Positions 16,497 to 35,454 of a DNA stretch of 64,000 nt are shown piece by piece; the stretch's first letter is position 1, and every line of letters starts with the position of its first letter. The DNA lies in assembly GCF_003352185.1 (NCBI RefSeq), contig NZ_CP029608.1, positions 496,001 through 560,000 on the forward strand, read 5' to 3'. The translations under genes were made by a program, and so were the position numbers. The DNA is from Pseudomonas kribbensis. Lineage in GTDB: Bacteria; Pseudomonadota; Gammaproteobacteria; Pseudomonadales; Pseudomonadaceae. The notes under the pieces are model-generated. The model had not been told where the DNA came from and ran no database searches. It saw nothing but the letters and a program-made list of their open reading frames with translations.

Positions 16497-16520
16497 AAAG
16501 GGCGCCGAAAGGCGCCCTTT
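16497..16520. terminator. Bidirectional intrinsic terminator
   Basis: A perfect stem AAAGGGCGCC/GGCGCCCTTT with a GAAA tetraloop. It separates the antitoxin gene from the convergent end of the pigment operon and can serve both strands. Confidence 0.85.
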
Positions 16521-16534
16521 GTCGTTTCTGGCGA

Positions 16535-16975
16535 TTACTGAACCGTCGCCAGATCACCCTTCAACGCAACGCCGGCCATGATCGCGCCCGCGTGGCATTC
16601 GTAGTTCTTCGCATCCTTGCGCTCGTTGCTCTTGTAGAAGCTGACGATGTTGGTCACGGCGTTGGCGCCGGCGTTTTTCGCCGCCTGGTGCAGGCTGATG
16701 ATGGCCGATTGCACGACCCACTCGCAGGCTTCCTGGTCAGTCTTGTTGAAGGCGTTGGTCTTCTTGTTGGTCACCGCGCCAGGGCTGACGACGCTGACTT
16801 TGCCGGCCGGGGCATTGCCCGCCAGATAGAACTTCACGCTGCCGTCGATCTTGCCGGTGCGGGTTGCCTCTGCGACCGCTTTGTCGAATGGCAGATAGAC
16901 CGCCGTGTCACGGGCCTGGCTGACGGCCGGCAAGGCACAGATGAGCAGGGCGGCAGCGAGTTGGTTGAAGCGCAT
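16535..16975 (-). CDS. Small secreted protein at the end of the aryl polyene operon
   Basis: The 146-residue protein has a signal peptide ending near SQA (residues 18-20). The mature part carries IDGSVKFYLAGN, ACEWVVQSAIISLH, AGANAVTNIVSFY and YECHAG, paralogous to the product at 15590-16027. The ATG has AAGGAG 6 bases upstream. It starts only 20 bases after the ketosynthase stop at 16996 with no terminator between, so it is probably the last gene of the pigment operon. The function is unknown; a periplasmic role is inferred from the signal peptide. Confidence 0.8.
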   Translation of the reverse strand: MRFNQLAAALLICALPAVSQARDTAVYLPFDKAVAEATRTGKIDGSVKFYLAGNAPAGKVSVVSPGAVTNKKTNAFNKTDQEACEWVVQSAIISLHQAAKNAGANAVTNIVSFYKSNERKDAKNYECHAGAIMAGVALKGDLATVQ

Positions 16976-16995
16976 GGAGGTCTCCTTGACCTGGA

Positions 16996-18231
16996 TTAAT
17001 TCGGTGGCGTCCAGCGGCGGAAAATCAGCGAGGTATTGACCCCGCCAAACGCGAAGTTGTTGTTCATCACGTAGTCGTGGTGCATCTGGCGGAACTCGCC
17101 GCGCAGGTAATCGAGCTTGCCGCAGTGCGGGTCGACTTCGTCGAGGTTGAGCGTGTGCACGTACAGGTCGCGGTTGAGCATTTCGATGCTGAACCACGAC
17201 TCCAGCGCGCCGCAGGCGCCCAAAGTGTGACCGAGGAAGCTCTTCTGCGAGCTGATCGGCATGTGTTCGCCGAACAGGCTGCTGGTGGCCAGGGTCTCGG
17301 CGATATCGCCCTGTTCGGTGGCCGTGCCGTGACCGTTCACGTAACCGATGGCGTCAGGCGTGAGGCCGGCGTCTTCCAGTGCCAGCTCCATCGCACGGCG
17401 CATGGTGACCTGTTCCGGCCGGGTGGTGTGCTGGCCGTCGGCGTTGCTGCCGAAGCCGACGATTTCGGCGTGGATGCGCGCACCGCGAGCGAGGGCGTGT
17501 TCCAGTTCTTCGAGCACCAGCATGCCGCCGCCTTCACCGATCACCAGGCCGTCGCGGCCCTTGTCATACGGACGTGGCGAGGTTTGCGGTGCATCGTTTT
17601 TCAGGCTAGTGGCGTACAGCGCGTCGAACACCATGGCTTCGGTCGGGCACAGCTCTTCGGCACCGCCGGCGAGCATCAGCGGCAGGCGGCCGAACTTGAT
17701 CGCCTCGTAGGCGTAACCGATGCCCTGGCTGCCGCTGGTGCAGGCGCTGGAGGTCGGGATCAGGCGACCGGTGAGGCCGAAGAAGATGCTGATGTTCGCC
17801 GCCGTGGTGTGCGGCATCATCCGCACGTAAGAGTTGGCGTTCAGGCCTTCGGCCACCGAATTCAGTAGCATGTTGCCGAACGCCTTGATCTCGTCGGTGC
17901 TGCCGGTGGATGAGCCACAGGCCACGCCCATGCGCCCGTCCTTGATCGACTCATCGCCCAGCAGTCCTGCATCGGCCAGCGCTTTTTCCGCCGCGCCGAC
18001 CGCGAGCCGCGAGACCCGGCCCATGCTGCGCAGTTGTTTACGTGTCCAGTGCGTCGGCACCAGAAAATCATCGATCGGCCCGGCCAGTCGGGTGTTCAGC
18101 TCGCTGAAGCGATCCCACTCGTCCATCCGGCGGATGCCGCTGCGGTTGGCGGCGAAATTGCCGGCGATGGTGTCCCAGTCGCTGCCCAGCGAGGTGATGC
18201 CGGCCATGCCGGTGACGACAACGCGCTTCAT
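16996..18231 (-). CDS. Beta-ketoacyl-ACP synthase (FabF-like), aryl polyene cluster
   Basis: Condensing enzyme expected to extend the polyene chain on ACP. The 411-residue protein has a complete Cys-His-His triad: Cys164 in SSACTSGS, His301 in HGTATEQ and His335 in GHTLGACGA. The N-terminus is MKRVVVTGMAGITSLG. The ATG at 18231 overlaps the stop of the upstream ketoreductase as ATGA and is preferred over an in-frame GTG at 18237. Aryl polyene clusters normally carry two or three ketosynthases, with another here at 19413-20609. Confidence 0.93.
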   Translation of the reverse strand: MKRVVVTGMAGITSLGSDWDTIAGNFAANRSGIRRMDEWDRFSELNTRLAGPIDDFLVPTHWTRKQLRSMGRVSRLAVGAAEKALADAGLLGDESIKDGRMGVACGSSTGSTDEIKAFGNMLLNSVAEGLNANSYVRMMPHTTAANISIFFGLTGRLIPTSSACTSGSQGIGYAYEAIKFGRLPLMLAGGAEELCPTEAMVFDALYATSLKNDAPQTSPRPYDKGRDGLVIGEGGGMLVLEELEHALARGARIHAEIVGFGSNADGQHTTRPEQVTMRRAMELALEDAGLTPDAIGYVNGHGTATEQGDIAETLATSSLFGEHMPISSQKSFLGHTLGACGALESWFSIEMLNRDLYVHTLNLDEVDPHCGKLDYLRGEFRQMHHDYVMNNNFAFGGVNTSLIFRRWTPPN

Positions 18232-18959
18232 CAGCACAAGCCTCCGTTGACCGCCAGGACCTGGCGGGTGATGTACGACGCTTCCGCCGACATCAGGAAA
18301 TTCACCGCACCGGCCACCTCTTCAGGGGTGCCCATGCGTTGTGCCGGGATCATTTTCATCAGTTCTTCCACCGGCACGTTTTCGTCGAGCATGGCCGTGT
18401 CGATCAGGCCCGGCGCGACACAGTTGACTGTAATTTTGCGCTTGGCCAGTTCGATCGCCAACGCCTTTGCGGCACCGATCACACCGGCCTTCGAAGCGCT
18501 GTAGTTGACCTGTCCCCGGTTGCCGATCAGCCCCGAAACCGAAGTGATGCAAACGATGCGACCAGCGGCGCGGCGACGGATCATCGGCATCATCACCGGA
18601 TGCAGGACGTTGTAGAAACCGTCGAGGTTGGTGCGCAACACCACGTCCCAATCGTCATCGCTCAGCGCCGGAAACGCGCCGTCGCGGGTCAGTCCGGCAT
18701 TGAGCACCACGCCGTAATAGGCACCGTGGGCTTCAACGTCTGCTTCAAGGATGGCTTTGCAGGTTTCGCGGTCAGCCACGTCGAATTGCAGGATGCGTGC
18801 ATTGCGCCCCAAGGCTTCGACTTCGGCTTTCACCGCTTGCGCTTCGGCCACGCCGCTGCGGCAATGCAGGACGATATCGTGGCCGGCCTTGGCCAGGCGC
18901 AGGGCGATGGCGCGGCCGATGCCACGGCTGGAGCCGGTGACCAGTACGAATTCAGTCAT
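18231..18959 (-). CDS. 3-oxoacyl-ACP reductase (FabG-like SDR), aryl polyene cluster
   Basis: NADPH-dependent ketoreductase of the polyene elongation cycle. The 242-residue short-chain dehydrogenase has the cofactor motif TGSSRGIG at residues 8-15, NAG near 87-89, and the catalytic set Ser140, Tyr153 and Lys157 in YSASKAG. The C-terminus ends with the usual YITRQVLAVNGG. It overlaps the dehydratase upstream by 8 bases and the ketosynthase downstream by ATGA. Confidence 0.94.
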   Translation of the reverse strand: MTEFVLVTGSSRGIGRAIALRLAKAGHDIVLHCRSGVAEAQAVKAEVEALGRNARILQFDVADRETCKAILEADVEAHGAYYGVVLNAGLTRDGAFPALSDDDWDVVLRTNLDGFYNVLHPVMMPMIRRRAAGRIVCITSVSGLIGNRGQVNYSASKAGVIGAAKALAIELAKRKITVNCVAPGLIDTAMLDENVPVEELMKMIPAQRMGTPEEVAGAVNFLMSAEASYITRQVLAVNGGLC

Positions 18960-19416
18960 CGTTCGACTCCTTCAATTGTTCAAGATATTGCGCCGCGTGC
19001 GGCGGGCGGAACACGTTCAGCCGGGCACTGGCTTCGATGCCCGGCGCATTGATGTGGCATTCGAACACGCCCATGCCGTTGTCATCTTCCAGCGAGCGGA
19101 TGCCGTGGATGGTCAGTTCACACCCGACGGGAAACGCCTCGACATTGCATTCGAATTTGCGGGTGCCGAGCAGAAAGCCCAGCTCCACCGCATTGCCTTT
19201 CTGCCGTGCATGGCAGCCGGCGAACGCGGCAACGCTCTGCGCCATCAGCTCGACGCCGACCCACGCCGGCAGACTGCCGTCGGGCAGACTGAACAGGCCA
19301 TCGGGTTTGACCGTCAGGGTGGTGTGGATCTGCTCGTCGTCGAAGCTGAGGATCCGGTCGATCAGAATCATGTCGCCAGCGTGGGGCAGCAATTCGGCGA
19401 GCGGCCAGTCAGTCAT
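18952..19416 (-). CDS. Hotdog-fold 3-hydroxyacyl-ACP dehydratase, aryl polyene cluster
   Basis: The 154-residue protein has LLPHAGDMILIDRI at about 9-22, the start typical of the ApeP-type hotdog dehydratases, and WVGVELMAQSVAAFAGCHA on the central helix (about 52-70). It should remove water in each round to build the conjugated double bonds. A second dehydratase domain is fused to the AMP ligase at 30851-32530. ATGA overlap with the upstream ketosynthase shows tight coupling. Confidence 0.85.
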   Translation of the reverse strand: MTDWPLAELLPHAGDMILIDRILSFDDEQIHTTLTVKPDGLFSLPDGSLPAWVGVELMAQSVAAFAGCHARQKGNAVELGFLLGTRKFECNVEAFPVGCELTIHGIRSLEDDNGMGVFECHINAPGIEASARLNVFRPPHAAQYLEQLKESNDD

Positions 19417-20609
19417 GGGGCGTCTCCGATAATCAGGCTGACGTTATTGCCACCGAAGGCAAACGAATTGCTCATCAGGTAGCGGGGAGCAATGGACGCC
19501 AGGCGTTCGCTCGCGGTCACCCACTTCAGCGCTGGCAGGTCGGGATCGGCCTGGCCGTCCCAGACGTGCGGCGGCAAGGCATGGTCGGGGTTGTCGGCAC
19601 TCAGGCTCAGCCAGCAGAACGCGGCTTCCAGTGCGCCGGCAGCGCCGAGGGTGTGGCCGGTCATCGGTTTGGTCGAAGAACAGGCCACGCCCTGCGGGAA
19701 CAGGGTGGCAACGGCCAGGCTTTCCATGGCGTCGTTGTGTTGGGTGGCGGTGCCATGCAGGTTCAGGTAACTGATTTGTTCGGCTTGCAGTCGGGCGCGA
19801 TCCAGCGCCTGTTGCATGGCTTGCAACGCGCCTCGACCTGACGGTTCCGGTGCGGAAATGTGGTGAGCGTCGGAACTGGCGCCAGCGCCCAGCAGGGCGA
19901 TGGCCGGGCCGTCGCCGCGCTGTCTGCTCATCACGAACAGCACCGCAGCCTCGCCGATATTGATGCCGTTGCGGTTGGCAGAGAACGGATTGCAGCGCTC
20001 CCCGGAAACAGCTTCCAGCGACGAAAAACCATTGAGCGTCAGTTTGCACAGGCTGTCGACGCCGCCGCACAGCACCGCGTCGCACAGCCCCAGATCGAGC
20101 AGGCGCTTGGCGCTCATCAGGGCCCGGGCGCTGGAGGTGCACGCCGTGGAAATCACGTAGGTCGGGCCGCTCAGTTGCAGCCAGTCGGCGAGGAAGGTCG
20201 CCGGGGCGCCGAGCTCCTGTTGCCGGTAGTCGTAATCGTCCGGGAACTGCTGGTTGCGAATGTAATGCGCCAGCCCCTGGCTGGCCTCGTCGATACCCGA
20301 GGTGCTGGTGCCGAGCACCACACCAATACGCTCACGGCCGTAGGCCTGAATGGCAGCGTCGATGTCGTCGCGAATCTGCAACGCCGCTTCCAGCAGCAAC
20401 TGATTGTTGCGGCTCTTGTGCGCCGCCATCTGCGGCGGAATGGGCGCCAGATCACCGCGTACTGCGGCCACCGGCAACTCGCGTTCCGGCACCCAGCCAG
20501 CCTCGTGGCGCATGCCCGAACAATCGCCGGCGAACAGGTGGCGGGCGACTTCTTGCTTGTCACGGCCCAGGGCGCAGATCACGCCGAGGGCGTTGAGGTA
20601 AGCGGTCAT
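19413..20609 (-). CDS. Beta-ketoacyl-ACP synthase, aryl polyene cluster
   Basis: The 398-residue condensing enzyme has an intact triad: Cys157 in STACTSSA, His286 in HGTATQHND and His320 in GHTLGAAGA. The C-terminal SNSFAFGGNN is typical of the family. Substrate preference cannot be read; in aryl polyene systems one ketosynthase pairs with a chain-length partner and another starts the chain. ATGA overlaps on both sides place it inside the operon. Confidence 0.92.
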   Translation of the reverse strand: MTAYLNALGVICALGRDKQEVARHLFAGDCSGMRHEAGWVPERELPVAAVRGDLAPIPPQMAAHKSRNNQLLLEAALQIRDDIDAAIQAYGRERIGVVLGTSTSGIDEASQGLAHYIRNQQFPDDYDYRQQELGAPATFLADWLQLSGPTYVISTACTSSARALMSAKRLLDLGLCDAVLCGGVDSLCKLTLNGFSSLEAVSGERCNPFSANRNGINIGEAAVLFVMSRQRGDGPAIALLGAGASSDAHHISAPEPSGRGALQAMQQALDRARLQAEQISYLNLHGTATQHNDAMESLAVATLFPQGVACSSTKPMTGHTLGAAGALEAAFCWLSLSADNPDHALPPHVWDGQADPDLPALKWVTASERLASIAPRYLMSNSFAFGGNNVSLIIGDAP

Positions 20610-21088
20610 GGCGTCGATTCACCTAAGGGAGACACGCGATAGTGCGGGCCTTGGGGCAGATTCAATTCGAAGCTCGATGGTTGTGAATAGCGGATGTCCC
20701 AGCGTGCCGGCAAGGAACGTTGCCCGTCGTGTTGCTGCGCGGTGGGGTAATTGCGTGACAGCTCGTCGGCAGGCGTCAGGGCGAACAGCAGCGCGGCGAA
20801 CAGTTCTCGGGCTTCCGGATTCGGTGGCAGCAGGCCGTCGGCCTGCCAGCGTCCGTCGATCAGTTGCTGACGGGCCTGGGGAATGCCCAGCGGATCCATC
20901 ATCGACCAGCGGATGCCCGGGCCCTCGCGCTGGATCACCAACAACCAGTCCTGACGCTGTCCGGCTTGCTGGCGCTCGATGTGCAGTTGCAGCGGCAGCG
21001 GCAGGCTCGGGTTGCCGGCCGGCAGCGGTGCCTGACTGGCGCAGGCGCCGAGCAGGCTGATGCAAGCCAGCAGAATAAGCCGTATCAC
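20606..21088 (-). CDS. DUF3261-type lipoprotein, aryl polyene cluster
   Basis: The 160-residue protein has a lipoprotein signal with lipobox LLGAC near residues 13-17. The mature part includes LLVIQREGPGIRWSMMDPLG. Members of this family recur in aryl polyene clusters and are thought to help place the pigment in the outer membrane; the exact role is not known. The start is set at GTG 21088, because the upstream part of the open frame runs through a REP doublet. No strong ribosome-binding site is seen. The stop overlaps the ketosynthase ATG. Confidence 0.8.
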   Translation of the reverse strand: MIRLILLACISLLGACASQAPLPAGNPSLPLPLQLHIERQQAGQRQDWLLVIQREGPGIRWSMMDPLGIPQARQQLIDGRWQADGLLPPNPEARELFAALLFALTPADELSRNYPTAQQHDGQRSLPARWDIRYSQPSSFELNLPQGPHYRVSPLGESTP

Positions 21089-21097
21089 CGCGGACAA

Positions 21098-21187
21098 TGT
21101 GGGAGCGAGCCTGCTCGCGATGGCGTCGGAACATCCAGCACTGATGCAAGCTGATCCACCGCTATCGCGAGCAGGCTCGCTCCCACA
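21098..21187. repeat. REP doublet (REPIN) inside the aryl polyene operon
   Basis: Inverted arms TGTGGGAGCGAGCCTGCTCG and the complement are at 21098 and about 21168-21187, of the same family as the doublets at 11952 and 56069. It fills the only sizeable gap in the operon, between the methyltransferase stop (21202) and the lipoprotein start (21088). In the mRNA it would fold into a long hairpin. Confidence 0.92.
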
Positions 21188-21201
21188 AGTAAAGTGCGAC
21201 A

Positions 21202-21927
21202 TCAGCAAATCCCTTCCAGCGGTTTGCGCGCCACGACGTTGACCAGGGTTTCTTCACGCTGGCCAAACGGCTTCGGCTGGCGCAGGCCAAAGCGTTCAAG
21301 CAGACCGAAATCCTTCGCCCGGCTCCACCACAGGTACGGGTAGGAAACATTCCGTTCGCCGAACTCGAAGCCCTGCTGGCGAATCATTTCCAGATACTGC
21401 GCCGCACTCTTCTGCACGTGCATCGGATGGCGGAACAGCCAGCGGATGACCCACGTATCAATGTAAGCCTCGGTGGACTCGGCGAACAGCAGATAACCGC
21501 CCGGTTTGAGCACCCGGTAGAACTCGGCCAGGGCCTTTTCCTGTTCCACCAGATGATGAAAGGTCTGGTGACAGAACAGTAGATCGACGCTCGCATCCGG
21601 CACATTGAGTGTCGCGCAGTCGCTGCCAATCAGCTCGACGGTGAAACCCTGGCGCGCCGCTTCTTCAGCGCTCAGCTCCAGGCTGTGCGGGTCGGCATCG
21701 ACGCCGATCAAACGCTGTGGGGCGAAGGTCTGGCGCAGGTGGCCGAAGGATTTGCCCTGGCCGCATCCGGCATCCAGCAGCACCGGATTGGCCGGCAGAG
21801 CTTCGCTGAACAAGCCGCGCAAATCGTTGATCGCCACGCGCAACACATGGTGCTGCCAGGTGTGGCTGCGCAGGAACCAGAAGCCGAAACGGGTTTCCTC
21901 GACGTAGCTGTCGCTCAAGTAATTCAT
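21202..21927 (-). CDS. SAM-dependent methyltransferase, aryl polyene cluster
   Basis: The 241-residue class I methyltransferase has motif I LDAGCGQGKS at about 51-60, an acidic residue after strand 2 in IGVDADPHS, and a post-motif LKPGGYLLFAEST. It probably methylates a ring hydroxyl or carbon of the aryl head group, as known for aryl polyenes, but the acceptor cannot be read from sequence. ATGA overlap with the upstream flavoenzyme. Confidence 0.85.
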   Translation of the reverse strand: MNYLSDSYVEETRFGFWFLRSHTWQHHVLRVAINDLRGLFSEALPANPVLLDAGCGQGKSFGHLRQTFAPQRLIGVDADPHSLELSAEEAARQGFTVELIGSDCATLNVPDASVDLLFCHQTFHHLVEQEKALAEFYRVLKPGGYLLFAESTEAYIDTWVIRWLFRHPMHVQKSAAQYLEMIRQQGFEFGERNVSYPYLWWSRAKDFGLLERFGLRQPKPFGQREETLVNVVARKPLEGIC

Positions 21928-23156
21928 GGGGCGTCCTTTGCACAGAGTTCGGAAATCGTCTTCAGTCGGCGGCGGGCCTCACTGACGAACGGGTTGCGTT
22001 CGTCCCAGGCATAACCGGCGAGAATCGAACAGATCATGCGACGGATGTCCGGGGAGGCCTGCTCATGGAAAATCACGTCCTGGAAGGTGCCGGCGTACCA
22101 GCCCTCGACGTAGGCGCGGAAGGTGTCGACGCCGCGTTTCAACGGCTCGGCGAACTCGCTTTGCCAGTTCACGGTTTCGCCCTGCAACTGTCGGTGCAAT
22201 ACACCGGCGGCCATGCTCGCCGAGCGCATGGCGATGGTCACGCCGGAAGAGAACACCGGATCGAGAAACTCGGCGGCGTTGCCTAGCAGAGCAAAACCCG
22301 GACCGTGCAGGGTTTTGACGTTGGCGGCATAGCCGCCGAGGGTGCGCGCCGGGGTGTCCCACACGGCGTTGTTCAGCACCTTCGCCAGGCTCGGGGTTTC
22401 AGCGATGAAACCGCGCAGGCAGGCATCGAGATCGGCGTCGCGACCGTTGAAATGTTCAGCAGCAGCGACAACGCCCACCGAGCAGCGACCGTTGCTGAAC
22501 GGGATCGTCCAGAACCAGATATCGCGATGCTGCGGGTGGGTGGTGACGAGGATCTTTTCGCGGTCGAAGGCCGGGTGATCGATGTGATCTTCGACATGGG
22601 TGAACACGGCCTGGCGCACCGGGAAATTCGACGGTGCTTCCAGATCAAGCAAGCGTGACAGTACGCGGCCATAGCCGCTGGCATCGAGAACGAAACCGGC
22701 CTCGACACGGTACTCGCTGCCGTCTTCGCGACGCACATCGAGTTGCGGACGCGGGCAGTCGAAATCGACGCTGACGATGGCATCGCCATAACGGATTTCC
22801 ACACCTTGCAGCGCGGCTTGATCGGCCAGCAGTTTGTCGAAGTCGGCACGTTGCACCTGGAAGGTGGTCGGTTTGCCGCCGGTGAACGTATCGCCGAAAT
22901 CGAACGCGCTGTAGCGCTCGCCCCAGGCGAATGCCGCGCCGGTCTTGCGCTGGAATCCGGCGGCGTTCACCGCATCGAGCATCCCGGCCTCTTCGACGAA
23001 GTCCAGGCAATGGCTGAGCAGGCTTTCGCCGATGGAAAATCGCGGGAAATGCTGGCGCTCGATGACCAGCACGTCGTGCCCCTTGCGCTTGAGCAACGCA
23101 GCGGCAATGGCGCCGGACGGGCCGGCGCCGATGATCACGACCTGACGGGATTCCAT
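21924..23156 (-). CDS. FAD-dependent oxidoreductase, halogenase-like, aryl polyene cluster
   Basis: The 410-residue flavoprotein has the dinucleotide motif GAGPSG at residues 10-15, FPRFSIGESLL near 38-47 and FVLDASGYG near 155-163. WFWTIP at 214-219 matches the WxWxIP motif that marks flavin-dependent halogenases. A lysine at 71 in FQRKTGAAF could fill the catalytic Lys position, but this alignment is by eye. It may halogenate the aryl head group, as reported for xanthomonadins; a hydroxylase or reductase role remains possible. The ATG at 23156 starts 1 base after the upstream stop; an upstream in-frame GTG is possible. Confidence 0.78.
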   Translation of the reverse strand: MESRQVVIIGAGPSGAIAAALLKRKGHDVLVIERQHFPRFSIGESLLSHCLDFVEEAGMLDAVNAAGFQRKTGAAFAWGERYSAFDFGDTFTGGKPTTFQVQRADFDKLLADQAALQGVEIRYGDAIVSVDFDCPRPQLDVRREDGSEYRVEAGFVLDASGYGRVLSRLLDLEAPSNFPVRQAVFTHVEDHIDHPAFDREKILVTTHPQHRDIWFWTIPFSNGRCSVGVVAAAEHFNGRDADLDACLRGFIAETPSLAKVLNNAVWDTPARTLGGYAANVKTLHGPGFALLGNAAEFLDPVFSSGVTIAMRSASMAAGVLHRQLQGETVNWQSEFAEPLKRGVDTFRAYVEGWYAGTFQDVIFHEQASPDIRRMICSILAGYAWDERNPFVSEARRRLKTISELCAKDAP

Positions 23157-23157
23157 T

Positions 23158-24318
23158 TCAACGATTGGCACGCGAGCTCCTGGGTACGGCAATAGGGTTC
23201 AGAGACGCACGGTGCAGGCCGATGAAGGCCGGCAGCAGCGTCGCGATCAGGCCCATCAGCATCAGCGCAAAGTACAGCGCCGGGCTGATGAGCTGTTGTT
23301 GCAATAGCAGGTTGAGAAAGACGATTTCACTCAAGCCGCGAATGTTCAGCAGCACACTCTCGCGCCAGCGGCTGGCGCCTTCGAAGGATTCACCGGCCCA
23401 GCCGAGGCCCAGCCAGTTGCCGAGCAATTTGCTGGCAATCGGCAACAGCAGCAGCGCTAACCATTGCACCGCGCCGAGGCTGACGAGGGCGCTGTGCACA
23501 TCGATCTGCACGATGCCAAAGGTGAGGATCAGCGGAATCGCGATCCACGTCTGCAAACGATTCATCCAGCGTGCCGGCAACGGCAGCACCAATGGCACCT
23601 TCAACGCGGCCATGCACAGCAGGTAGCCGATGCCGAAAATCAGCGCATTGAGTTTGTAGTGTTCGGCCAGCACCAACAGCGCAAAAAAGCCGAGGCTGTA
23701 AGTCAGCGGCCGGCGGATGCCGAACACCCGCAGCAGCAACGGCACGCAGGCCAGCCCTAGCGGCAGCAACAGACTGCTCAGGTGCAGGCTGCCCTGGGCG
23801 AGGCCGAACAGGGTCCAGCAGGTCAGGTCGATCAGGATCGCGGTCTGCACCAGACGCCGGGTGGCGGCGGGCGGATAGTCGATATGGCGCAGGTACAGAT
23901 ACAGCACCGGGATCGCGGTGATGGCGAACACCAGACCGATGGCCAGCGAATTGATCCACGGTTGCGCTGGCAGCAGCCAGTACGCTGTCGCCAGCCCGCA
24001 GGCGAACGGCACGGCGAAACTCGGCAGGGCAATTTTCACGCTCTGGCGATCCAGACGCAGGTCGATCACATCGCTGAGGATGTGCCCGAGCAGCAGCGCG
24101 AAGCTCAGGCTGTAGACGTTTTTCAGCCAGTCCGGCGCAATCAGATCGGCGCCGCTGAGCTGCCAGCCCGGTTCGATCCAGAAATACATCAACAGCGGCA
24201 GGATGAAGCTGGCCAGCAGCAACTGGCTGACAATCGGAATCAACCCGAAATGTCGGCCGACACGGGTGGCCACCGCGAACAGCGCCAGGGCCATGACCCA
24301 GAAGACTGCGACCATCAT
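23158..24318 (-). CDS. Sodium/proton antiporter-like membrane protein, aryl polyene cluster
   Basis: The 386-residue protein has about 11-12 hydrophobic segments and resembles the CPA2-type cation:proton exchanger fold (PIVSQLLLASFILP near the start, GLSEIVFLNLLLQQ near the end). The role in pigment production is not known; a transport or pH function is inferred from position only. The start codon lies in the sequence ATGATG overlapping the exporter stop. Confidence 0.7.
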   Translation of the reverse strand: MMVAVFWVMALALFAVATRVGRHFGLIPIVSQLLLASFILPLLMYFWIEPGWQLSGADLIAPDWLKNVYSLSFALLLGHILSDVIDLRLDRQSVKIALPSFAVPFACGLATAYWLLPAQPWINSLAIGLVFAITAIPVLYLYLRHIDYPPAATRRLVQTAILIDLTCWTLFGLAQGSLHLSSLLLPLGLACVPLLLRVFGIRRPLTYSLGFFALLVLAEHYKLNALIFGIGYLLCMAALKVPLVLPLPARWMNRLQTWIAIPLILTFGIVQIDVHSALVSLGAVQWLALLLLPIASKLLGNWLGLGWAGESFEGASRWRESVLLNIRGLSEIVFLNLLLQQQLISPALYFALMLMGLIATLLPAFIGLHRASLNPIAVPRSSRANR

Positions 24319-27662: not shown

Positions 27663-29199
27663 GCAGCCTCCAGTGTTGTTCGGCGATACGTTGCAGGCAC
27701 AGGCGCAGTTCGCCTTCCAGGGCGCGGTCTTCGATCACCGGCGGGAAGTCTTTGGCCAGCGCTTCGTGCATCGCGGCCAGCGACGGAGGCAGTGGTCGTG
27801 CGTCTTCATCACGGCCACGCAGCCACACACCCTGATTGGCCGCGAGCAGCGTGGCGGCGGCCACCTGTTCGGTCAGCTCCAGCACGCGAATGGCGTCGCG
27901 GGCGGCGATGGTGCCCATGCTCACCTTGTCCTGGTTGTGGCATTCGGTGGAGCGCGAGAACACGCTGGCCGGCATGGTGTTTTTCAACGCTTCTGCAGTC
28001 CAGGCGCTGGCGCCGATCTGCACAGCCTTGAAGCCGTGGTTGAGCATCGCACGGTCGGCGCTGGCGCCGGACAGGTTGCTCGGCAAACCGTGGTTGTAAC
28101 GCTCGTCCACCAGCAGCGCGAGTTGGCGGTCAAGCAGGTCGGCGACGTTGGCCACAAGGTTTTTCAGGCTGTCCATGGCGAACGCGATGTGTCCGCCGTA
28201 GAAGTGCCCGCCGTGCAGCACGCGCTCGGCTTCGGCGTCGATGATCGGGTTGTCGTTGGCGCTGTTGAGTTCGGTCTCGATGAACGAACGCAGCCAGTTC
28301 AGGCTGTCGGCCAACACGCCGAGCACGTGCGGTGCGCAGCGCAGCGAGTAGCGATCCTGCAGGCGATGCAGCGGCGCGGTCGGCGCGTCGATCGCCAGAT
28401 CCTTGCGCAGCCACGCGGCGACCTGCATCTGCCCCGGATGCGGCTTGGCGGCGAACAGGCGCTCGTCGAAGTGCTCCGGATTGCCTTGCAGCGCCACCAC
28501 GTTCAGCGCGGTGATGCGGGTGGCCAGTTGCAGCAGGTAATCGGCGCGGGCGTAGGCCAGGCAGGCGAGGCCGGTCATCACGGCGGTGCCGTTCATCAGT
28601 GCCAGCGCCTCTTTCGGGCGCAGCACCAGCGGGGTCCAGCCGAGTTCGCGGTGCACGTCGGCGGACTGGCGGCGTTCGCCACGGAACATCACTTCACGTT
28701 CGCCGGACAGGGTCGCGGCGACGTAGGACAGCGGCGTCAGATCGCCGCTGGCGCCCACCGAACCCTCTTCGGGGATCAGCGGCAGGATGTCGTGTTCGAG
28801 GAAGGCATGCAGGCGTTCCAGCAGTTCGATGCGCACACCGGACACGCCGTGGCACAGCGACTGCAGACGCGCCGCCAGCACTGCGCGGGTGGCCTGGGCG
28901 TCGAGCAGTTTGCCCAGTCCACAACCGTGGAAGGTGTAGAGATGCTGCGGCAGCGCTTCGACGTGATGCAGCGGCACCGCCACCACGCAGGAGTCGCCGT
29001 ATCCGGTGGTCACGCCGTAGATCACGCCTTCCTTGTCCAGCAGCGAATCGAGGAAACGCGCGCCTTTGGCGATGCGTTCGCGGTAGGCGGCGTCGCTCTG
29101 CAACTGCACGGGCGCCTGACGGTTGGCCAGGGCCAGCACGTCTTCGATGCGCAAAGGGCGTTCGCCGAAGGTTACCGGCTCATGGGTTGGCGTCGTCAT
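27655..29199 (-). CDS. Aromatic amino acid ammonia-lyase (HAL/PAL/TAL family), aryl polyene cluster
   Basis: The 514-residue enzyme carries the Ala150-Ser151-Gly152 triad that cyclises into the MIO cofactor (GSVGASGDLTPL) and the catalytic Tyr61 in YGVTTGYG. The selectivity pair lies in HLYTFHGCGLG and reads Phe90-His91. By family, His-Leu here marks tyrosine lyases, Phe-Leu phenylalanine lyases and Ser-His histidine lyases, so this enzyme is mixed and its substrate is open. Its place in the cluster favours an aryl substrate giving cinnamate or coumarate as starter. Automatic labels of histidine ammonia-lyase are probably wrong. It overlaps both neighbours by 8-20 bases. Confidence 0.85.
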   Translation of the reverse strand: MTTPTHEPVTFGERPLRIEDVLALANRQAPVQLQSDAAYRERIAKGARFLDSLLDKEGVIYGVTTGYGDSCVVAVPLHHVEALPQHLYTFHGCGLGKLLDAQATRAVLAARLQSLCHGVSGVRIELLERLHAFLEHDILPLIPEEGSVGASGDLTPLSYVAATLSGEREVMFRGERRQSADVHRELGWTPLVLRPKEALALMNGTAVMTGLACLAYARADYLLQLATRITALNVVALQGNPEHFDERLFAAKPHPGQMQVAAWLRKDLAIDAPTAPLHRLQDRYSLRCAPHVLGVLADSLNWLRSFIETELNSANDNPIIDAEAERVLHGGHFYGGHIAFAMDSLKNLVANVADLLDRQLALLVDERYNHGLPSNLSGASADRAMLNHGFKAVQIGASAWTAEALKNTMPASVFSRSTECHNQDKVSMGTIAARDAIRVLELTEQVAAATLLAANQGVWLRGRDEDARPLPPSLAAMHEALAKDFPPVIEDRALEGELRLCLQRIAEQHWRLHA

Positions 29200-30127
29200 C
29201 GGTCTTCCAGAAAGGGTAAAAGTTGAACCATTGCCTGGGGGCTTCGAGGCAATAGTGACTCAGGCGTTCGGCGTAGCGGGTCGCCCACTGATGAATGACC
29301 TGTTCGCGGTCGCGGCGGGTCCAGGTCACGGCCTCGGTGAACGGCTCCAGAGTCAGGCGATAGTGTCCGTCAGGTTGCTTGAGGCACATCAGTAGATTGA
29401 CCGGGCATTTCAGCAGGCCGGCCAGCAGCCACGGGCCTTGCGGGAATCGCGCCGGATGACCGAGGAAATCCACGGTGACGCTGCGGCCGCCATGCAGCGG
29501 TACGCGATCACCGGCAATCGCCAGCCATTCGCCGCGCTCCAGGCGTTCGTTCAGTTGCAGCATGACCCCCGGGTCCAGCTCGCTGACCTGGATCAGCCGC
29601 AGATTGGTCGCCCCGGCTTCGCCCAGCAGGCGGTTGAATTGTTCGGCGTGCTTGGTGTGCACCAGCACGTTCATGGTGACCTTTTCGCCAATCTCCGCCA
29701 GCGCCCGGCACACTTCGAGGTTGCCCAGATGCGCACCCACCAGCATTTGCCCGCGGCTGCCGCGCAACTGATTGCGCAACAGCGCCGGGTCGATGATTTC
29801 GATCTGCTCGATGCTCAGCTTGCGGTTCCATACGTCGAGCTTGTCGAGCAGCGAATCGGCGAACGCCATGAACTGCCCGAACACGCGCCACAGGCTCGGG
29901 CGCAATTCGTGGCGACCGCTCCAGTCGGCGAGGCGCTGCTGATACTGCCAGGCACTGCGCCGGGCCGTGCGGCCGAACAGGAAAAAGTACAGGACGATGC
30001 CGTACAACAGCGGGCTCAGCAGGCGTCGGCCAAGGACCTTGGCGGCGAACGCGGTGAATTTCATCAGCAGGAAACTGCCGCGTTCTTCGCGGTCGGCCCA
30101 GTGCTTCTTGTCGGTCTCGACCGTCAT
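29180..30127 (-). CDS. Lipid A acyltransferase-like protein (LpxL/HtrB family), aryl polyene cluster
   Basis: The 315-residue protein has one N-terminal hydrophobic segment (about 37-53). The acyltransferase region has GAHLGNLEVCRAL near 127-139, in which His replaces the usual NHxxxxE/D context as HLGNLE, then LAIAGDRVP and FLGHPARFPQGP. It may join the aryl polyene acid to a lipid or sugar anchor. ATGA overlap with the glycosyltransferase upstream fixes the start at 30127, although the frame is open further. Confidence 0.82.
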   Translation of the reverse strand: MTVETDKKHWADREERGSFLLMKFTAFAAKVLGRRLLSPLLYGIVLYFFLFGRTARRSAWQYQQRLADWSGRHELRPSLWRVFGQFMAFADSLLDKLDVWNRKLSIEQIEIIDPALLRNQLRGSRGQMLVGAHLGNLEVCRALAEIGEKVTMNVLVHTKHAEQFNRLLGEAGATNLRLIQVSELDPGVMLQLNERLERGEWLAIAGDRVPLHGGRSVTVDFLGHPARFPQGPWLLAGLLKCPVNLLMCLKQPDGHYRLTLEPFTEAVTWTRRDREQVIHQWATRYAERLSHYCLEAPRQWFNFYPFWKTDDDANP

Positions 30128-30858
30128 GCGCGCCACCGTCGCCAGAGAATCGCGGGCGAGCGCAGCAACATGCCGAAGAACAGGCGCGTGTGCATGCTCG
30201 AAATCAGCACGTTGTCGTGGAACATCCGAAAGTGCGACACACCGTCCAGCGGGTAGTGCACGCTGGTTTGCAGCCAGCGCATCGGCTGGTTGCGCCAGGA
30301 CAGGCGCACGAGGATGTCCGAGTCGAAATCCATGCGCTTGCCGATCCGCGCCGAATCGATCACCGCCAGTGTCGGTTCCAGCGGATAGACGCGGAAACCG
30401 CACATCGAATCGCGGATCTGCAGCGACAGGGTGTTGATCCACACCATCACATGAGTCAGGTAACGGGCGTACAGGCGGCCCTTGGGCACGCTGGCGTCGT
30501 ACAGCGGATAACCGCAGATCAGCGCTCGCGGATGGGCGCGGGATTCTTCGACGAACCGCGCGACATCCTGCAAGTCGTGCTGACCGTCGGCGTCGACCTG
30601 CAAGGCGTGGCTGAAGCCCAGTCGCGCCGCTTCACGCAGGCCGGTCATCACTGCGCCGCCCTTGCCCTGATTGGTGGTGAGGCGCACCAGATACACCCGC
30701 TCGCGTTCGGCCAGCACATCCAGCACGGCTGCACAGAATTTGCTGCTGGCATCGTCCACCAGAATGCACGGCAAGCCCTGGGCGAGCAGGGCATCGACCA
30801 CCGTGGCGATCGCGGTTTCGTGGTTGTACACCGGGATGACTGCGCAAGGATTATGCAT
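30124..30858 (-). CDS. Family 2 glycosyltransferase, aryl polyene cluster
   Basis: The 244-residue GT-A enzyme has AVIPVYNHE at about 6-14, CILVDDASS near 32-40 and the metal-binding VDADGQHD near 87-94. It resembles dolichol-phosphate mannose synthase-type enzymes. In this cluster it could add a sugar to the lipid anchor of the pigment; donor and acceptor are unknown. The ATG at 30858 overlaps the end of the upstream ligase by 8 bases. Confidence 0.86.
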   Translation of the reverse strand: MHNPCAVIPVYNHETAIATVVDALLAQGLPCILVDDASSKFCAAVLDVLAERERVYLVRLTTNQGKGGAVMTGLREAARLGFSHALQVDADGQHDLQDVARFVEESRAHPRALICGYPLYDASVPKGRLYARYLTHVMVWINTLSLQIRDSMCGFRVYPLEPTLAVIDSARIGKRMDFDSDILVRLSWRNQPMRWLQTSVHYPLDGVSHFRMFHDNVLISSMHTRLFFGMLLRSPAILWRRWRA

Positions 30859-32530
30859 TGCCAGTCCCCAACAGAATCCGCCCGCTGGAGCAGGTGGCAG
30901 TGTCGTTGCGGTAGGCGAAATATAGTTTGCCGCGTTCAGGGTCGAAGCGCAGATGCAGCTGGATTTCATCGCCGGGGCGCACCAGTTGCTGGAACTTCAG
31001 TACTTCCATGCCGGCGAACGCGCCGGACAGGTTCAACAGTTGGCGACCAAGGTTCAGCGCCCACTCGACCTGCACCACGCCGGGCAATACCGGGGCCTTG
31101 GGGAAGTGACCGCTGAAGTAAGCGAGGTCTGGCAGCACGCTCAGTTGCAGGCTCCACTCGCCATCGGTTTCGGTCTGTTCCAGAACCTCCGGAGCCTTCG
31201 GGCGCGGTGCCAGCAGCAGCGCTTCGACATCGGCCTGGGGCAACTTGCCCTGAGGGTTCAGCGGCAGTTGTCGCAGCAAGCGCCAGCGCCGGGGCAGGGC
31301 GAGGGCTTCGCAATGCTCGCCGAGGTGACGGCGCAGGGTTTCGGTGAGGCTGCGGCGGCCGTGCTCACGCAGGGCAAACAGGCCTGATTCGCTGAGCACC
31401 AGCAAGGCGCCGAGGGACGCGCGGTTTTCCTGCACCACACCGAGCCGTGCTTCGGCGACCCAATCGTGGGCGACCAGGGCCTGTTCCAGCATCGGCAGGG
31501 AGATGCGTTTTTCTTCCAGTTTGACGATCCGGTCCAGCCGCCCGAGCAGTTCGAAGCGACCATCGGCTTCGATGCGTGCAGCATCCGCTGTGTGTTCGAC
31601 ATGCCCGGCGGGCAGGTACGGTGACGCGATCAGCAGTGCGCCGTCGCCATCCTGGCTCAGCTCGACACCAGCGAACGGCTGCCACAGCTGTTGTCCCTGA
31701 CGCCAGGCGATACCGCCGGTCTCGGAGCTGCCGAGGATTTCCGTCGGCCACTGCCGCAAGCGCTGGTGCAGGCTCTGCGCGGCATCTGCCGGCAGCGCGC
31801 CGCCGGAGGAAAACACCCGGTGTACGGCGCTCAGGGCCGGCCAGTCGAGATTGTCGCCCATGCGCTTGAGCAACGCCGGGCTAGCCACCCACGCGAAGGC
31901 CGGGTGTTCGCGGCTGGCGCGCTGCATGTCTTCGGGAAAGGCCAGTTGTTTGCGCAGGAACGGGCGCCCGGCACACAGCGGCCACAGCACACGGAATAAC
32001 AGACCGTAGATGTGCTGAGTGGCGACGCTGCCGATGATGCAGGCCTCACCGAGATCCGCGCCCCACAGTTGCTCCAGGGCTTCGACTTCATTGGCCAGTT
32101 GCCGCAGGGATTTGTCGATGCGTTTGGGCTCGCCGCTGGAGCCGGAGGTGCACAGGCTCAGGCGACACTGGTCGAGATCCAGTTCGGCACCCGTCAGTGC
32201 GGTGCCCTGCAAGTCGCTCAGGTGCACGTCGTCTGCGTGATCGGTCAGCCACAGGTCGACTTCATGCGACCAGCGCTGGCGGGTCTGCGCTTGCAGATCC
32301 GAAGGCAGCAACACGCTGACGCCGGCGCGCCAGGCACCCAGCAGGGCGACGGCCAGTTCTGCGGCATCTTCCAGGTGCACGGCCAGACGTTGCACGCCCC
32401 TGGCTTGCAGGCCGGCGGCCAGGCTCAGGGCCTGTTCGCGCAGGTGTGCGTGATCGAGTGCCGGCGCGACGGTGACGGCGCGCTGCGGCAGATCCTTGAG
32501 CAACAGCTGCTCAAGTTTTATCCAGTTCAT
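30851..32530 (-). CDS. AMP-dependent acyl ligase fused to a C-terminal FabZ-like dehydratase
   Basis: The 559-residue protein has two activities in one chain. Residues 1 to about 440 form an adenylating domain with the phosphate loop [10 protein letters not shown] at about 127-136; it should activate an aryl acid as the acyl-AMP and load it on an ACP. Residues from about 455 form a hotdog domain with [12 protein letters not shown], whose His475 is the expected dehydratase residue. In many aryl polyene clusters these are separate genes. The ATG at 32530 overlaps the upstream stop as ATGA, so the open frame extending to 32563 is not used. Confidence 0.87.
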
Positions 32531-33072
32531 GGGCGACCTCTTACCCGTTGTCGTATCAGCCATTCAATGGCAAACATCAGGCCGATCAATCCGTAGGAGA
32601 TCAGGCCGGTGTACAACATCCACCAGTGCAGCGGCGCCCAAAGGGTCAGCAGGGCCGCGCACAAGCCGTTACAGAAAAAAAACATGCTCCAGGCCACGGT
32701 GACCTGGCGGGTGTAGCGGATCGCCTCGGGCGGCAATTGCGGCTCGCGAATTCGCGCCAGACGTTCGACCATCGGCGGACCGTATTTCAGGCTCAGGCTG
32801 AACAGCACCAGCATGAAGCCGCTGATCAGCACCGGATACCAGCGCAGCAACAGCGGGCTGTCGATCAGCGCCAGCAGCAGGCAGAACACGATGGCCACGC
32901 AGGCCATCCACAGACTGCCGGGCTTGCGCTCGCCGGTCAGGGCACGGGCCAGCCACAGGCTGCCCAGCAGCAGGCCGAACTGCCACGGCGCAAAGTGCTC
33001 CATGCCGAAATACACCGCAAAGGGATACAACAGGCCCGCCAGCAGCAGGCCGAGGCCGATCAATCGGCTCAT
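32527..33072 (-). CDS. COG4648-type integral membrane protein, aryl polyene cluster
   Basis: The 181-residue protein has about five or six hydrophobic segments, starting at residue 4 (LIGLGLLLAGLLYPFAVYF) and ending before the basic tail RQRVRGRP. A conserved central loop carries KYGPPMVERLARIREPQLPP. Homologues occur in most aryl polyene clusters but their function is not known. ATGA overlaps on both sides. Confidence 0.8.
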   Translation of the reverse strand: MSRLIGLGLLLAGLLYPFAVYFGMEHFAPWQFGLLLGSLWLARALTGERKPGSLWMACVAIVFCLLLALIDSPLLLRWYPVLISGFMLVLFSLSLKYGPPMVERLARIREPQLPPEAIRYTRQVTVAWSMFFFCNGLCAALLTLWAPLHWWMLYTGLISYGLIGLMFAIEWLIRQRVRGRP

Positions 33073-33323
33073 GCGGCCGGTTGAACCAGACGGTAGACCG
33101 CCTCGACCACGTCGCCGACGGTACGCACCGACTTGAATTCCTCGGCGGCGATTTTCTTGCCGGTCTGGCGTTTGATGTGGTCGATCAGGTCGACGGCGTC
33201 GATGCTGTCGATTTCCAGGTCCTGATACAGATTCGATTCCAGGCTCACACGGGCCGGGTCCAGTTCGAACAGCTCGACCAGGGCATCGCGCAGGGTGTTG
33301 AAGATGTCGTCACGAGTTTGCAT
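33069..33323 (-). CDS. Acyl carrier protein 2, aryl polyene cluster
   Basis: The 84-residue acidic protein has the phosphopantetheine site DLEIDSIDAVDL with Ser40 as attachment residue. It begins 9 bases after the first ACP gene. Two ACPs are normal for aryl polyene synthesis, one often carrying the starter and one the growing chain. Confidence 0.93.
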   Translation of the reverse strand: MQTRDDIFNTLRDALVELFELDPARVSLESNLYQDLEIDSIDAVDLIDHIKRQTGKKIAAEEFKSVRTVGDVVEAVYRLVQPAA

Positions 33324-33332
33324 GGTCCGGTC

Positions 33333-33593
33333 TCAAGCTGCCTGTTTTGCCGTGACGAACGCCGCGAGGCTCGCCACGTTGGTGAAATGGTTGCGGGTGT
33401 CCTTGGCGTCGGCGTCGATCTTGATGCCGTACTTTTTCTGAATCGCCAGGCCGAGTTCCAGAGCGTCGACGGAATCCAGGCCCAGGCCTTCGCCGAACAG
33501 TGTCTGGTCGTCGCCGATGTCGTCGACGCTGATGTCTTCGAGGCCCAGGGCGTCGATGATCAGCAGTTTTATCTCACGGTGCAGATCGCTCAT
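33333..33593 (-). CDS. Acyl carrier protein 1, aryl polyene cluster
   Basis: The 86-residue protein has the phosphopantetheine site GLGLDSVDALEL with Ser41. The frame is open to 33677, but the ATG at 33593 gives the standard ACP length and N-terminus MSDLHREIKLLI. It overlaps the acyltransferase gene by 20 bases. Confidence 0.92.
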   Translation of the reverse strand: MSDLHREIKLLIIDALGLEDISVDDIGDDQTLFGEGLGLDSVDALELGLAIQKKYGIKIDADAKDTRNHFTNVASLAAFVTAKQAA

Positions 33594-34383
33594 CTTCGGC
33601 GAGCTCCTTGATAAAAAAATGGTGCAGAAAGTCGTTGAGCTTGCGCGAGGCCTGCGGTGCAGGGCCTTGTGCGGCAAAGGTCTGTGGGTCTATATCGGCC
33701 CCGACGCGAAAACTGAAGTGAACACGGCGGCTCGGGATGCGATACCACGGCTCGGCCTTGGTCAAAGTGGTCGGGCTGACCTTGATGATGACCGGAGTCA
33801 GGATTTTCGCACCGCGCAGCGCGATGGCCGCTGCCCCCCGATGAAAGGCCGGGGCCTGACCGGGCTGAGTACGCGTGCCTTCCGGGAAAATGATCAGGGT
33901 CTGGCCATCCTGCAATGCGCTGGCGGCGGCATCGAGCATGTCCATGCTGCCGTCGTTGCTGATGTATTCGGTGCTGCGCAGCGGGCCACGGGTGAAAGGG
34001 TTTTCCCACAGCGTTTTCTTCACCACGCAATTGGCGTGGCGCACCAAGCCGATCAGGAACACCACATCGATCAGCGACGGGTGGTTGGCGATGATCATCT
34101 GCCCCGGCCGACCGAGGCGTTCGGCGCCCTGGATGTCATAGGTCAGCACGCCGGTACGGGCCATGAACCGGACGAAAAACCAGAACAGCCGACTGACGGT
34201 CTGCCGCGCCCGTTCGCGATGGGTTTTTGCGTCGCCCGGCAGGCAGCCCAGCAGCGGAAACACCAGCAAGCGCAGGCACAGCCCGCCGAGCCCGAACAGG
34301 CCGAAGCTGATGGCGGTGGCCAGCAGGCGCCAGTAGTAGGCGTCGCGGTGCTTTTCGGTCACGGGTTGCGTTGCCAGGTCCAT
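33574..34383 (-). CDS. 1-acylglycerol-3-phosphate-type acyltransferase (PlsC/LPLAT), aryl polyene cluster
   Basis: The 269-residue protein has one or two hydrophobic segments (about 24-50) and the acyltransferase motifs NHPSLID (HxxxxD type) near 100-106 and FPEGTRT near 170-176. It may attach the polyene or a fatty acid to a glycerol-like anchor. The ATG at 34383 overlaps the upstream gene by 25 bases; the longer open frame runs back through that gene. Confidence 0.87.
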   Translation of the reverse strand: MDLATQPVTEKHRDAYYWRLLATAISFGLFGLGGLCLRLLVFPLLGCLPGDAKTHRERARQTVSRLFWFFVRFMARTGVLTYDIQGAERLGRPGQMIIANHPSLIDVVFLIGLVRHANCVVKKTLWENPFTRGPLRSTEYISNDGSMDMLDAAASALQDGQTLIIFPEGTRTQPGQAPAFHRGAAAIALRGAKILTPVIIKVSPTTLTKAEPWYRIPSRRVHFSFRVGADIDPQTFAAQGPAPQASRKLNDFLHHFFIKELAEDERSAP

Positions 34384-35084
34384 ACACGATTTTTCCAGGC
34401 ATGTTGGCAAAGGGTTTGCTGGCCGAGCAGGGTTTGCAGCAGATTCAGTGCATGGGGCCATTGCGCTTTGGACAGTGCTTCGGGGGCGCTGTTCAGGGTC
34501 AGCCGCCAGTCGGTACCGGGAGTCAGCAGCAAGCCGACCGCGTACGGAAACGGCACATCATCGATCCACGCCGAATAGGCCTGGGGCGGTTGTTCTTCGG
34601 TGATCACCAACAGTACCGCGGGCGCGCCTTCCTCCAGCAGGGCGGCGGCTTCCAGCACGCCGTGTTCTAGACCGTCGCCAGCGGCGGCGAGGGCCGTCAT
34701 CTCGCTGGTTTCGCCGCGCATGATCGACCACAGGCCGATGATCGCGTTGTGCACGGAGAGGCTGAACTGGGTCGGTGACAGCGGTTGTTCGTTGGCCAGG
34801 TCGCTGAGGATGTCGAAGGTGCGCGGCGTTTCGCCGTGACGGGACACGAACACCAGCGGCAGGTTTTCCCGACTGTCGGCCAGTGGCCAGCCGACACTGA
34901 AGGCCATTCGCGCCAGGCGGCTGAGACGGCGGCGCTGCATGGCGGGAAGGAATGACACATCGGGCGCGGCATCGCTGCTCGGCAGCACGACCGGCTGTCG
35001 GCTCCAGGCTTGCCAGGCGTCCACGCTGTCGAGCCCGGGAGCCCAGGCGCGCCATTGGGCGATGTTGAAGTTGATCACGGACAT
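34359..35084 (-). CDS. Beta-ketoacyl synthase-like N-terminal domain protein, first gene of the aryl polyene operon
   Basis: The 241-residue protein resembles the ketosynthase-like N-terminal domain family: RRRLSRLARMAF near 51-62, LVFVSRHGETPRT near 77-89 and QFSLSVHNAIIGLWSI near 104-119. It lacks the Cys-His-His triad of a complete ketosynthase, so it is unlikely to condense alone. A chain-length or scaffold partner role is inferred. The ATG at 35084 follows CAGGGG by 8 bases. A promoter lies about 100 bases upstream. Confidence 0.78.
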   Translation of the reverse strand: MSVINFNIAQWRAWAPGLDSVDAWQAWSRQPVVLPSSDAAPDVSFLPAMQRRRLSRLARMAFSVGWPLADSRENLPLVFVSRHGETPRTFDILSDLANEQPLSPTQFSLSVHNAIIGLWSIMRGETSEMTALAAAGDGLEHGVLEAAALLEEGAPAVLLVITEEQPPQAYSAWIDDVPFPYAVGLLLTPGTDWRLTLNSAPEALSKAQWPHALNLLQTLLGQQTLCQHAWKNRVWTWQRNP

Positions 35085-35185
35085 TCATCCCGCCCCTGCG
35101 GGCTGTTTTTGACGCGGTTCTGCCAAAGCCACAGAGGAGCTGACCTTGCCGAAAGTGGCGTGGCGCTTGGCGCCGGGTGGCGCGC

Positions 35186-35214
35186 ATTATCCCGGTGCGA
35201 CGAGTGTGTAGCAA
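35186..35214 (-). promoter_or_regulatory. Sigma70-like promoter for the aryl polyene operon
   Basis: On the minus strand TTGCTA (35214-35209) and GATAAT (35191-35186) are separated by exactly 17 bases. The predicted start is near 35179, leaving a leader of about 95 bases before the first gene. The gene-free stretch 35085-35454 between this operon and parA holds this promoter, a small GC-rich hairpin near 35089-35102 and AT-rich sequence at 35215-35300 that could bind regulators. No gene is supported in it, although the parA frame is open through part of it. Confidence 0.5.
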
Positions 35215-35454
35215 ATGCTGGTTACATTTTGCGTTCTGAAATGGACCGAAGGGTACATGGCAAAAACTGTCACATGGCCATTATCCACGCTGATCGGGAT
35301 TTTTCTGTCAGGCATATCAGCGGCCAATGGCAGTCTTTGCGCCGTGTTGAATGAGAGATTGGCGTCTGACTCTGTAGTCCGCATCCATGAAGGTAGCGAA
35401 GCGGGGCCGGGCACCACTACACTCGGTCATTCTTTGATACACGGAGGTTTTGTC

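Follow-up and report, generated by a model that had tools for sequence, protein, structure and literature searches.

A complete operon in Pseudomonas kribbensis that very probably directs aryl polyene biosynthesis and export

Background

The ape genes of Escherichia coli encode the closest characterised relatives of the system described here: the genes for the aryl polyene (APE) pigment were recognised by deletion, and protection against oxidative stress and a role in biofilm formation have been described (PMC8253772, where gene functions are also tabulated). APE clusters of marine Pseudomonadaceae have been placed in the E. coli/Vibrio class, and APE-resorcinol hybrids are found there too (PMC10165715). 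An ammonia-lyase has been treated as a characteristic gene of Pseudomonas APE clusters (PMC8719888; PMC5851621), and is unmentioned in the available part of PMC8041823. The lyase of flexirubin biosynthesis, FlxA, has a first motif like that of histidine ammonia-lyases and a second like that of tyrosine and phenylalanine ammonia-lyases (TAL/PAL), and converts tyrosine to 4-coumarate and phenylalanine to cinnamate (PMC3992019).

Here we describe an operon in a stretch of 64,000 nucleotides (the window) of Pseudomonas kribbensis, positions 496,001 to 560,000 of contig NZ_CP029608.1, which is part of a 6.32-Mb single-contig genome. Judged by lyase and antiporter, the nearest relatives belong to the genus Pseudomonas. 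The operon is real and complete and of a well-known, widespread kind, its most unusual gene being that of a small ion antiporter. It very probably encodes a complete APE biosynthesis and export pathway of the E. coli/Vibrio type, in the form present in Pseudomonas.

Gene content and gene order

A run of 20 genes on the minus strand extends from 35084 to 16996. Its 19 junctions comprise 16 overlaps (1–25 bases) and three gaps, of 9, 1 and 113 bases, figures that depend on the choice of start, since a later start was picked where the longest open reading frame (ORF) overran the preceding gene. Recomputing coordinates and junctions confirmed the original prediction, made from the DNA letters, of twenty minus-strand genes with overlaps or gaps of at most 9 bases and a single gap filled by a doublet of repetitive extragenic palindromic (REP) units.

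Fifteen of the 20 proteins match the ape cluster of E. coli CFT073 in the same order (tblastn, E 1e-4 or better), and the order C-D-E-F-G-HI-J-K-L-M-N-O-P-Q-R of this characterised cluster is kept. The comparison of gene order that had been suggested as a check came out in favour of the APE type; for the E. coli/Vibrio type it was made with CFT073. The genes assigned to chain synthesis, lipid attachment and methylation, and that of the ApeG-like membrane protein, are the following.

34359-35084, minus strand: ApeC-like chain-length factor (Ketoacyl-synt_2; PF13723, 268.9 bits)
33574-34383, minus strand: ApeD-like lysophospholipid acyltransferase (PF01553; 38% to the E. coli counterpart at the same position)
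33333-33593, minus strand: ApeE-like acyl carrier protein (NF006617 above cut-off; DSVD motif)
33069-33323, minus strand: ApeF-like acyl carrier protein (NF003757 above cut-off; DSID motif)
32527-33072, minus strand: ApeG-like membrane protein (43% to the protein at the place of ApeG in E. coli)
30851-32530, minus strand: ApeH-ApeI fusion of an AMP-dependent ligase and an ApeI-type dehydratase (PF00501 and PF22818, ApeI-like)
30124-30858, minus strand: family 2 glycosyltransferase, corresponding to the first part of ApeJ (PF00535; 54% to that part in E. coli)
29180-30127, minus strand: LpxL-like acyltransferase, corresponding to the second part of ApeJ (PF03279; 35% to that part in E. coli)
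27237-27662, minus strand: ApeK-like thioesterase (PF13279; 49% to the protein at the place of ApeK in E. coli)
21202-21927, minus strand: S-adenosylmethionine-dependent methyltransferase, presumed functional equivalent of ApeB (PF08241; unmatched by tblastn in the E. coli cluster)
19413-20609, minus strand: ApeO-like elongating ketosynthase (NF006618 above cut-off; best solved match 6qsp_A, E 1.3e-107)
18952-19416, minus strand: ApeP-like dehydratase (PF22817; only solved match 6qsr_B)
18231-18959, minus strand: ApeQ-like ketoreductase (TIGR01831 FabG2 above cut-off; best solved match 7caw)
16996-18231, minus strand: ApeR-like initiating ketosynthase (NF006587 above cut-off; 54% to E. coli ApeR)

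The ApeO-like ketosynthase and the chain-length factor match partner chains (A and B) of the same two solved structures: 6qsp_A and 7f28_B are the two best matches of the former, while 6qsp_B (E 2.4e-31) and 7f28_A are the only ones of the latter. We take 6qsp to be the ApeO/ApeC complex and 6qsr the ApeI/ApeP complex of Xenorhabdus, and 7caw to be the ApeQ of Acinetobacter. Cys/His motifs are present in the ketosynthases and Ser motifs in the acyl carrier proteins. The operon contains a half-length chain-length factor of ApeC type together with an ApeO-type ketosynthase, and in addition ApeI and ApeP dehydratases, an ApeQ reductase, an ApeR ketosynthase, two acyl carrier proteins and an ApeH ligase. 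No family in Pfam or NCBIfam matched the ApeG-like protein.

Gene content, gene order, active-site motifs and conservation are directly established, and the assignment to the APE type made in the original prediction is upheld by the gene order, by the ApeI-like and ApeP-like families of Pfam, both above cut-off, and by the best solved matches 6qsp and 6qsr. All the activities it had listed were recovered with Pfam and NCBIfam, with some regrouping: the ligase, which matches ApeH, and the ApeI dehydratase, its C-terminal part, are one fused gene (30851-32530); of the three ketosynthase-type proteins, that of 34359-35084 is a chain-length factor; and the glycosyltransferase and LpxL-like acyltransferase, both present, are two halves of ApeJ. 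Because both match the single ApeJ gene of E. coli, the LpxL-like gene is not an extra.

As the components resemble those of fatty acid synthases and lipid export systems, they could in principle belong to a different lipid pathway, for a specialised fatty acid or a glycolipid, that merely looks like an APE pathway. This is extremely improbable, as both dehydratase families (ApeI-like and ApeP-like), a chain-length factor of half length and the order as a whole all fit an APE pathway. A xanthomonadin- or flexirubin/arcuflavin-type pigment, i.e. one with a brominated ring or a dialkylresorcinol ester, instead of a product of the E. coli/Vibrio type, finds some support in the halogenase-like gene and in the lyase, a gene that flexirubin clusters have too. 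However, the gene order follows that of E. coli, and two acyl carrier proteins are encoded here, against one in xanthomonadin clusters (PMC8253772). A scan of the 20 genes and of flanking ORFs showed no dialkylresorcinol-type genes, and the marine Pseudomonadaceae clusters are classed as E. coli/Vibrio, though hybrids with resorcinols exist (PMC10165715). We consider a pigment of this other type quite unlikely.

Probable starter unit and ring modification

The aryl acid that primes the chain would be supplied by a lyase encoded within the operon, and a flavoenzyme may act on the ring.

27655-29199, minus strand: aromatic amino acid ammonia-lyase, probable tyrosine ammonia-lyase (PF00221, 535.9 bits)
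21924-23156, minus strand: flavin-dependent halogenase-like enzyme (PF04820, 90.1 bits; WFWTIP and GAGPSG motifs)

The lyase has ASG at residues 150-152 (the methylideneimidazolone motif), F90-H91 at the selectivity loop and Gln423. The genome holds three other lyase-family matches, near 6.30 Mb, 450 kb and 448 kb; the residue comparison covered the first two, in which the histidine-type lyases have Ser-His instead of F90-H91 and Glu instead of Gln423. The patterns HGCG and HNQDKVSMG recur in 84 of 84 loci, a set made up of the 80 best lyase loci and four clusters of other genera. The lyase combines ASG with Gln in the second motif, and we take this Gln to be a mark of the TAL type. The FlxA model of NCBIfam matches the lyase at 319 bits, its cut-off being 700 bits. 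From these residues and the precedent of FlxA, deamination of tyrosine is the likely activity, and 4-coumarate probably is the starter.

The motifs of the flavoenzyme were counted in the 81 loci with a match (77 of Pseudomonas type and four of other genera, leaving out L091, a locus of the window's own genome): GxGxxG and WxWxIP were found in 81 of 81 and the loop Lys pattern in 80 of 81, with L097 lacking the Lys. Presumably these three are halogenase marks, and halogenation of the aryl substrate is plausible. Among solved structures 3nix is nearest (377 bits), followed by halogenases at 162 bits and less.

Several points weigh against the APE reading, its starter and ring modification included. 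Five of the 20 proteins (the lyase, the antiporter, the flavoenzyme, the methyltransferase and ApeN) lack a tblastn match in the E. coli cluster, and 3nix, the nearest solved relative of the flavoenzyme, is not named a halogenase. The specificity of ammonia-lyases cannot be safely predicted from sequence (PMC3992019). The best NCBIfam match of the ligase is a 4-coumarate ligase model, far below cut-off (92.6 versus 334.7 bits), and E. coli ApeH matches the same model at 75.1 bits; since ApeH is a predicted 4-hydroxybenzoate user, the match is no guide to the starter. Finally, the genome has two matches to the chorismate-lyase family, a stronger one at 6192809 and a weaker one at C1:872167-872661, and 4-hydroxybenzoate is therefore probably also available.

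In the same APE pathway, chorismate lyase might instead provide 4-hydroxybenzoate as the primer, and the ammonia-lyase might serve a different purpose, e.g. in supplying cinnamate or a second product. The APE pathways of E. coli and Xenorhabdus are described as started by 4-hydroxybenzoate (PMC8253772), and the ligase resembles E. coli ApeH in its family matches. On the other hand, the lyase lies inside the operon and is found in all 80 best loci, which were chosen by it, as well as in 116 of the 149 genomes of the genus; the E. coli cluster is without it, and its motifs differ from those of the genome's own histidine-type lyases. A 4-hydroxybenzoate starter is a possible but clearly less probable option than 4-coumarate.

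Proposed pathway

By analogy with characterised relatives, from which the pathway steps and the antioxidant role are taken, tyrosine would be converted to 4-coumarate, probably by the lyase, and the ApeH part of the ligase would load the aryl acid onto ApeE. ApeR would initiate, and ApeO/ApeC would elongate with malonyl units on ApeF, each unit being reduced by ApeQ and then dehydrated by ApeI/ApeP to give a conjugated polyene acid. Two enzymes, the halogenase-like flavoenzyme and the methyltransferase, probably modify the ring. Attachment of the polyene to lipid would fall to ApeD and the split ApeJ, and ApeM, ApeL and ApeN would move the polyene lipid to the outer membrane, where oxidants would be quenched. 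This is expected to be the operon with which many Pseudomonas species make a yellow, membrane-held antioxidant pigment.

Distribution in Pseudomonas

At E 1e-120 the lyase was found in 116 of the 149 genomes searched in the genus, a count that includes the window's own genome and one partial match. For the comparison of loci the best 80 of 591 lyase matches were taken, 79 of them labelled Pseudomonas and one Pantoea. All 20 genes occur in order in 44 of these 80 loci, and none is reordered. The antiporter alone is missing from 24 and the methyltransferase alone from six. The antiporter is also absent from L064, together with the flavoenzyme, from L078, together with the methyltransferase, and from L090, together with both; L029, L030 and L043 run into the end of a contig. 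In one Pseudomonas costantinii assembly the operon turns up on each of three contigs (L072, L073 and L074), possibly as real copies, possibly through duplication in the assembly. The flavoenzyme is also present in four of four clusters of other genera (Pseudoalteromonas, Caballeronia, Burkholderia and Acinetobacter).

The operon is ordinary and widespread. The suggestion in the original prediction that its lyase, halogenase-like enzyme, LpxL-like acyltransferase and antiporter might give an unusual variant is weaker: in our searches only the antiporter looked special to Pseudomonas, and the parts named are mostly ordinary. With a layout so common, knowledge of starter and tailoring would characterise a pigment made by much of the genus.

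Export genes, antiporter and a probable 21st gene

The remaining genes of the operon, and one directly behind it, are as follows.

26638-27240, minus strand: ApeL, LolA-like periplasmic carrier (PF03548; 30% to E. coli)
24315-26654, minus strand: ApeM, MMPL/RND-type exporter (30% to E. coli ApeM)
23158-24318, minus strand: membrane protein of cation/proton antiporter fold, Pseudomonas accessory
20606-21088, minus strand: ApeN-like lipoprotein, DUF3261, LolB-like (PF11659, E 0.0029, below cut-off)
16535-16975, minus strand: probable 21st gene, 20 bases after ApeR, secreted-looking, annotated 'excinuclease' (YbjQ/RcsF-like fold)

Genes for lipid attachment and for LolA/MMPL/LolB-like export are present, with ApeD, ApeJ, ApeL and ApeM matched in the E. 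coli cluster. ApeM gave partial matches to the HpnN/HAE3 models of NCBIfam below cut-off, and PF03176 at E 0.22 only. ApeN was assigned from its below-cut-off DUF3261 match and its position, a DUF3261 gene occupying the ApeN position in E. coli; its sequence has a lipobox-like stretch, a loose pattern of which was matched in 48 of 78 loci, with L091 of the window's own genome taken into the count.

The antiporter gene product is predicted to adopt the fold of a sodium/proton antiporter over its full length. It matched no Pfam family at E 0.05, the Na_H_Exchanger profile included, and the kinship is therefore one of fold and not of membership in that family. It was found in 79 of 149 same-genus genomes, in every one of which the lyase is present; in the 80 best lyase loci it is intact in 52 and without a match in 28, and no match was found in the four clusters of other genera. 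Among the genomes and clusters searched, it looks Pseudomonas-specific. In the 149 genomes, the matches have one in-frame stop in five and are incomplete or divided in three. Decay of the gene in places may account for this, or the in-frame stops may sit at its end. Near the operon (41688-43430, minus strand) another protein is encoded, of Na_H_Exchanger type and with TrkA_C and CorC_HlyC domains, which is not the operon's antiporter.

The operon probably has a 21st gene at 16535-16975, which lies inside the span given in the original prediction. Genes of this 'excinuclease' type occur in 69 of 149 same-genus genomes, in 66 of them on the lyase contig within 16.2 kb, and also downstream of the APE core in four of four clusters of other genera. 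Against its being part of the operon, the gene is directly downstream in only two of the 22 Pseudomonas loci compared that have room for it. The product matched no nuclease or ATPase family, no Pfam family up to E 1 and no NCBIfam model at 1e-10; given this, and the YbjQ/RcsF-like fold, we regard the database name as a mislabel. A second protein of this type (15590-16033, minus strand; 51% identical) is encoded 501 bases further downstream, and between the two paralogues, on the opposite strand, lies a gene for a helix-turn-helix addiction-module antidote-like protein (PF21716; 16199-16486, plus strand).

In the passages of the APE literature that were examined, no discussion of the antiporter or the 'excinuclease' gene was met, and no paper among those searched joins aryl polyene, halogenase and antiporter; an earlier description elsewhere may exist. 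One could imagine that Pseudomonas has added a dedicated antiporter acting together with the MMPL-type exporter, e.g. by adjusting the proton gradient locally or by transporting a counter-ion while the pigment lipid is loaded into the outer membrane, that the RcsF/YbjQ-fold periplasmic protein monitors or assists this loading, and that the product is an uncharacterised, 4-coumarate-primed and ring-halogenated APE; that all of this holds jointly is improbable. Both the antiporter and the mislabelled 'excinuclease' are clear targets for studying the export of APE lipids.

Other features of the window

21099-21186, no strand: REP doublet, an inverted pair, placed in the one long gap between genes of the operon
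35186-35214, minus strand: candidate sigma-70-like promoter ahead of the operon (consensus match 9/12 only)

The REP doublet lies in the gap of 113 bases (21202 to 21088). The 20-base REP unit occurs eight times in the window, in four doublets, with 0.01 expected by chance; the other three doublets (11954-12041, 56071-56158 and 61935-62022) have the same 88-base layout. For the candidate promoter, 0.1 matches are expected in the 301-base region, and one was found over 16000-35300 where 2.6 are expected. At 59230-59316 on the plus strand there is a C4 antisense RNA (RF01695, 62.4 bits), a kind known from the immunity regions of P1/P4-like phages, and a prophage may therefore lie nearby.

Comparison with known clusters

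Like the operon described here, apeA-apeR of E. coli CFT073 lie on one strand with overlapping genes, two acyl carrier proteins and separate half-length chain-length factor and ketosynthase. In P. kribbensis, however, H and I are fused, J is divided over two genes and the methyltransferase is found between M and N rather than at the front. An ApeA was not found here, and the cluster is enlarged by lyase, antiporter and flavoenzyme.

The core order is the same in Pseudoalteromonas sp. THAF3, Caballeronia insecticola, Burkholderia multivorans and Acinetobacter junii (L094-L097), which share with the operon the lyase (61–64% identical), the flavoenzyme (52–56%) and the downstream 'excinuclease'-type gene. 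In Caballeronia and Burkholderia, unlike here, flavoenzyme and methyltransferase lie beyond the core. The Pseudoalteromonas and Acinetobacter clusters gave no match to methyltransferase or ApeN, though Pseudoalteromonas has a DUF3261 gene by annotation.

The flexirubin cluster of Chitinophaga pinensis (flxA-Y) has a counterpart of the lyase in FlxA, but its dialkylresorcinol partner genes were not seen in the present operon. The xanthomonadin-like cluster of Lysobacter enzymogenes also encodes a type II polyketide synthase with a half-length partner of the ketosynthase resembling a chain-length factor, two dehydratases and exporters (PMC3691225). There, chain-length factor and ketosynthase lie next to each other and one acyl carrier protein is listed, whereas in P. 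kribbensis the two are encoded near opposite ends of the operon, which has two acyl carrier proteins.

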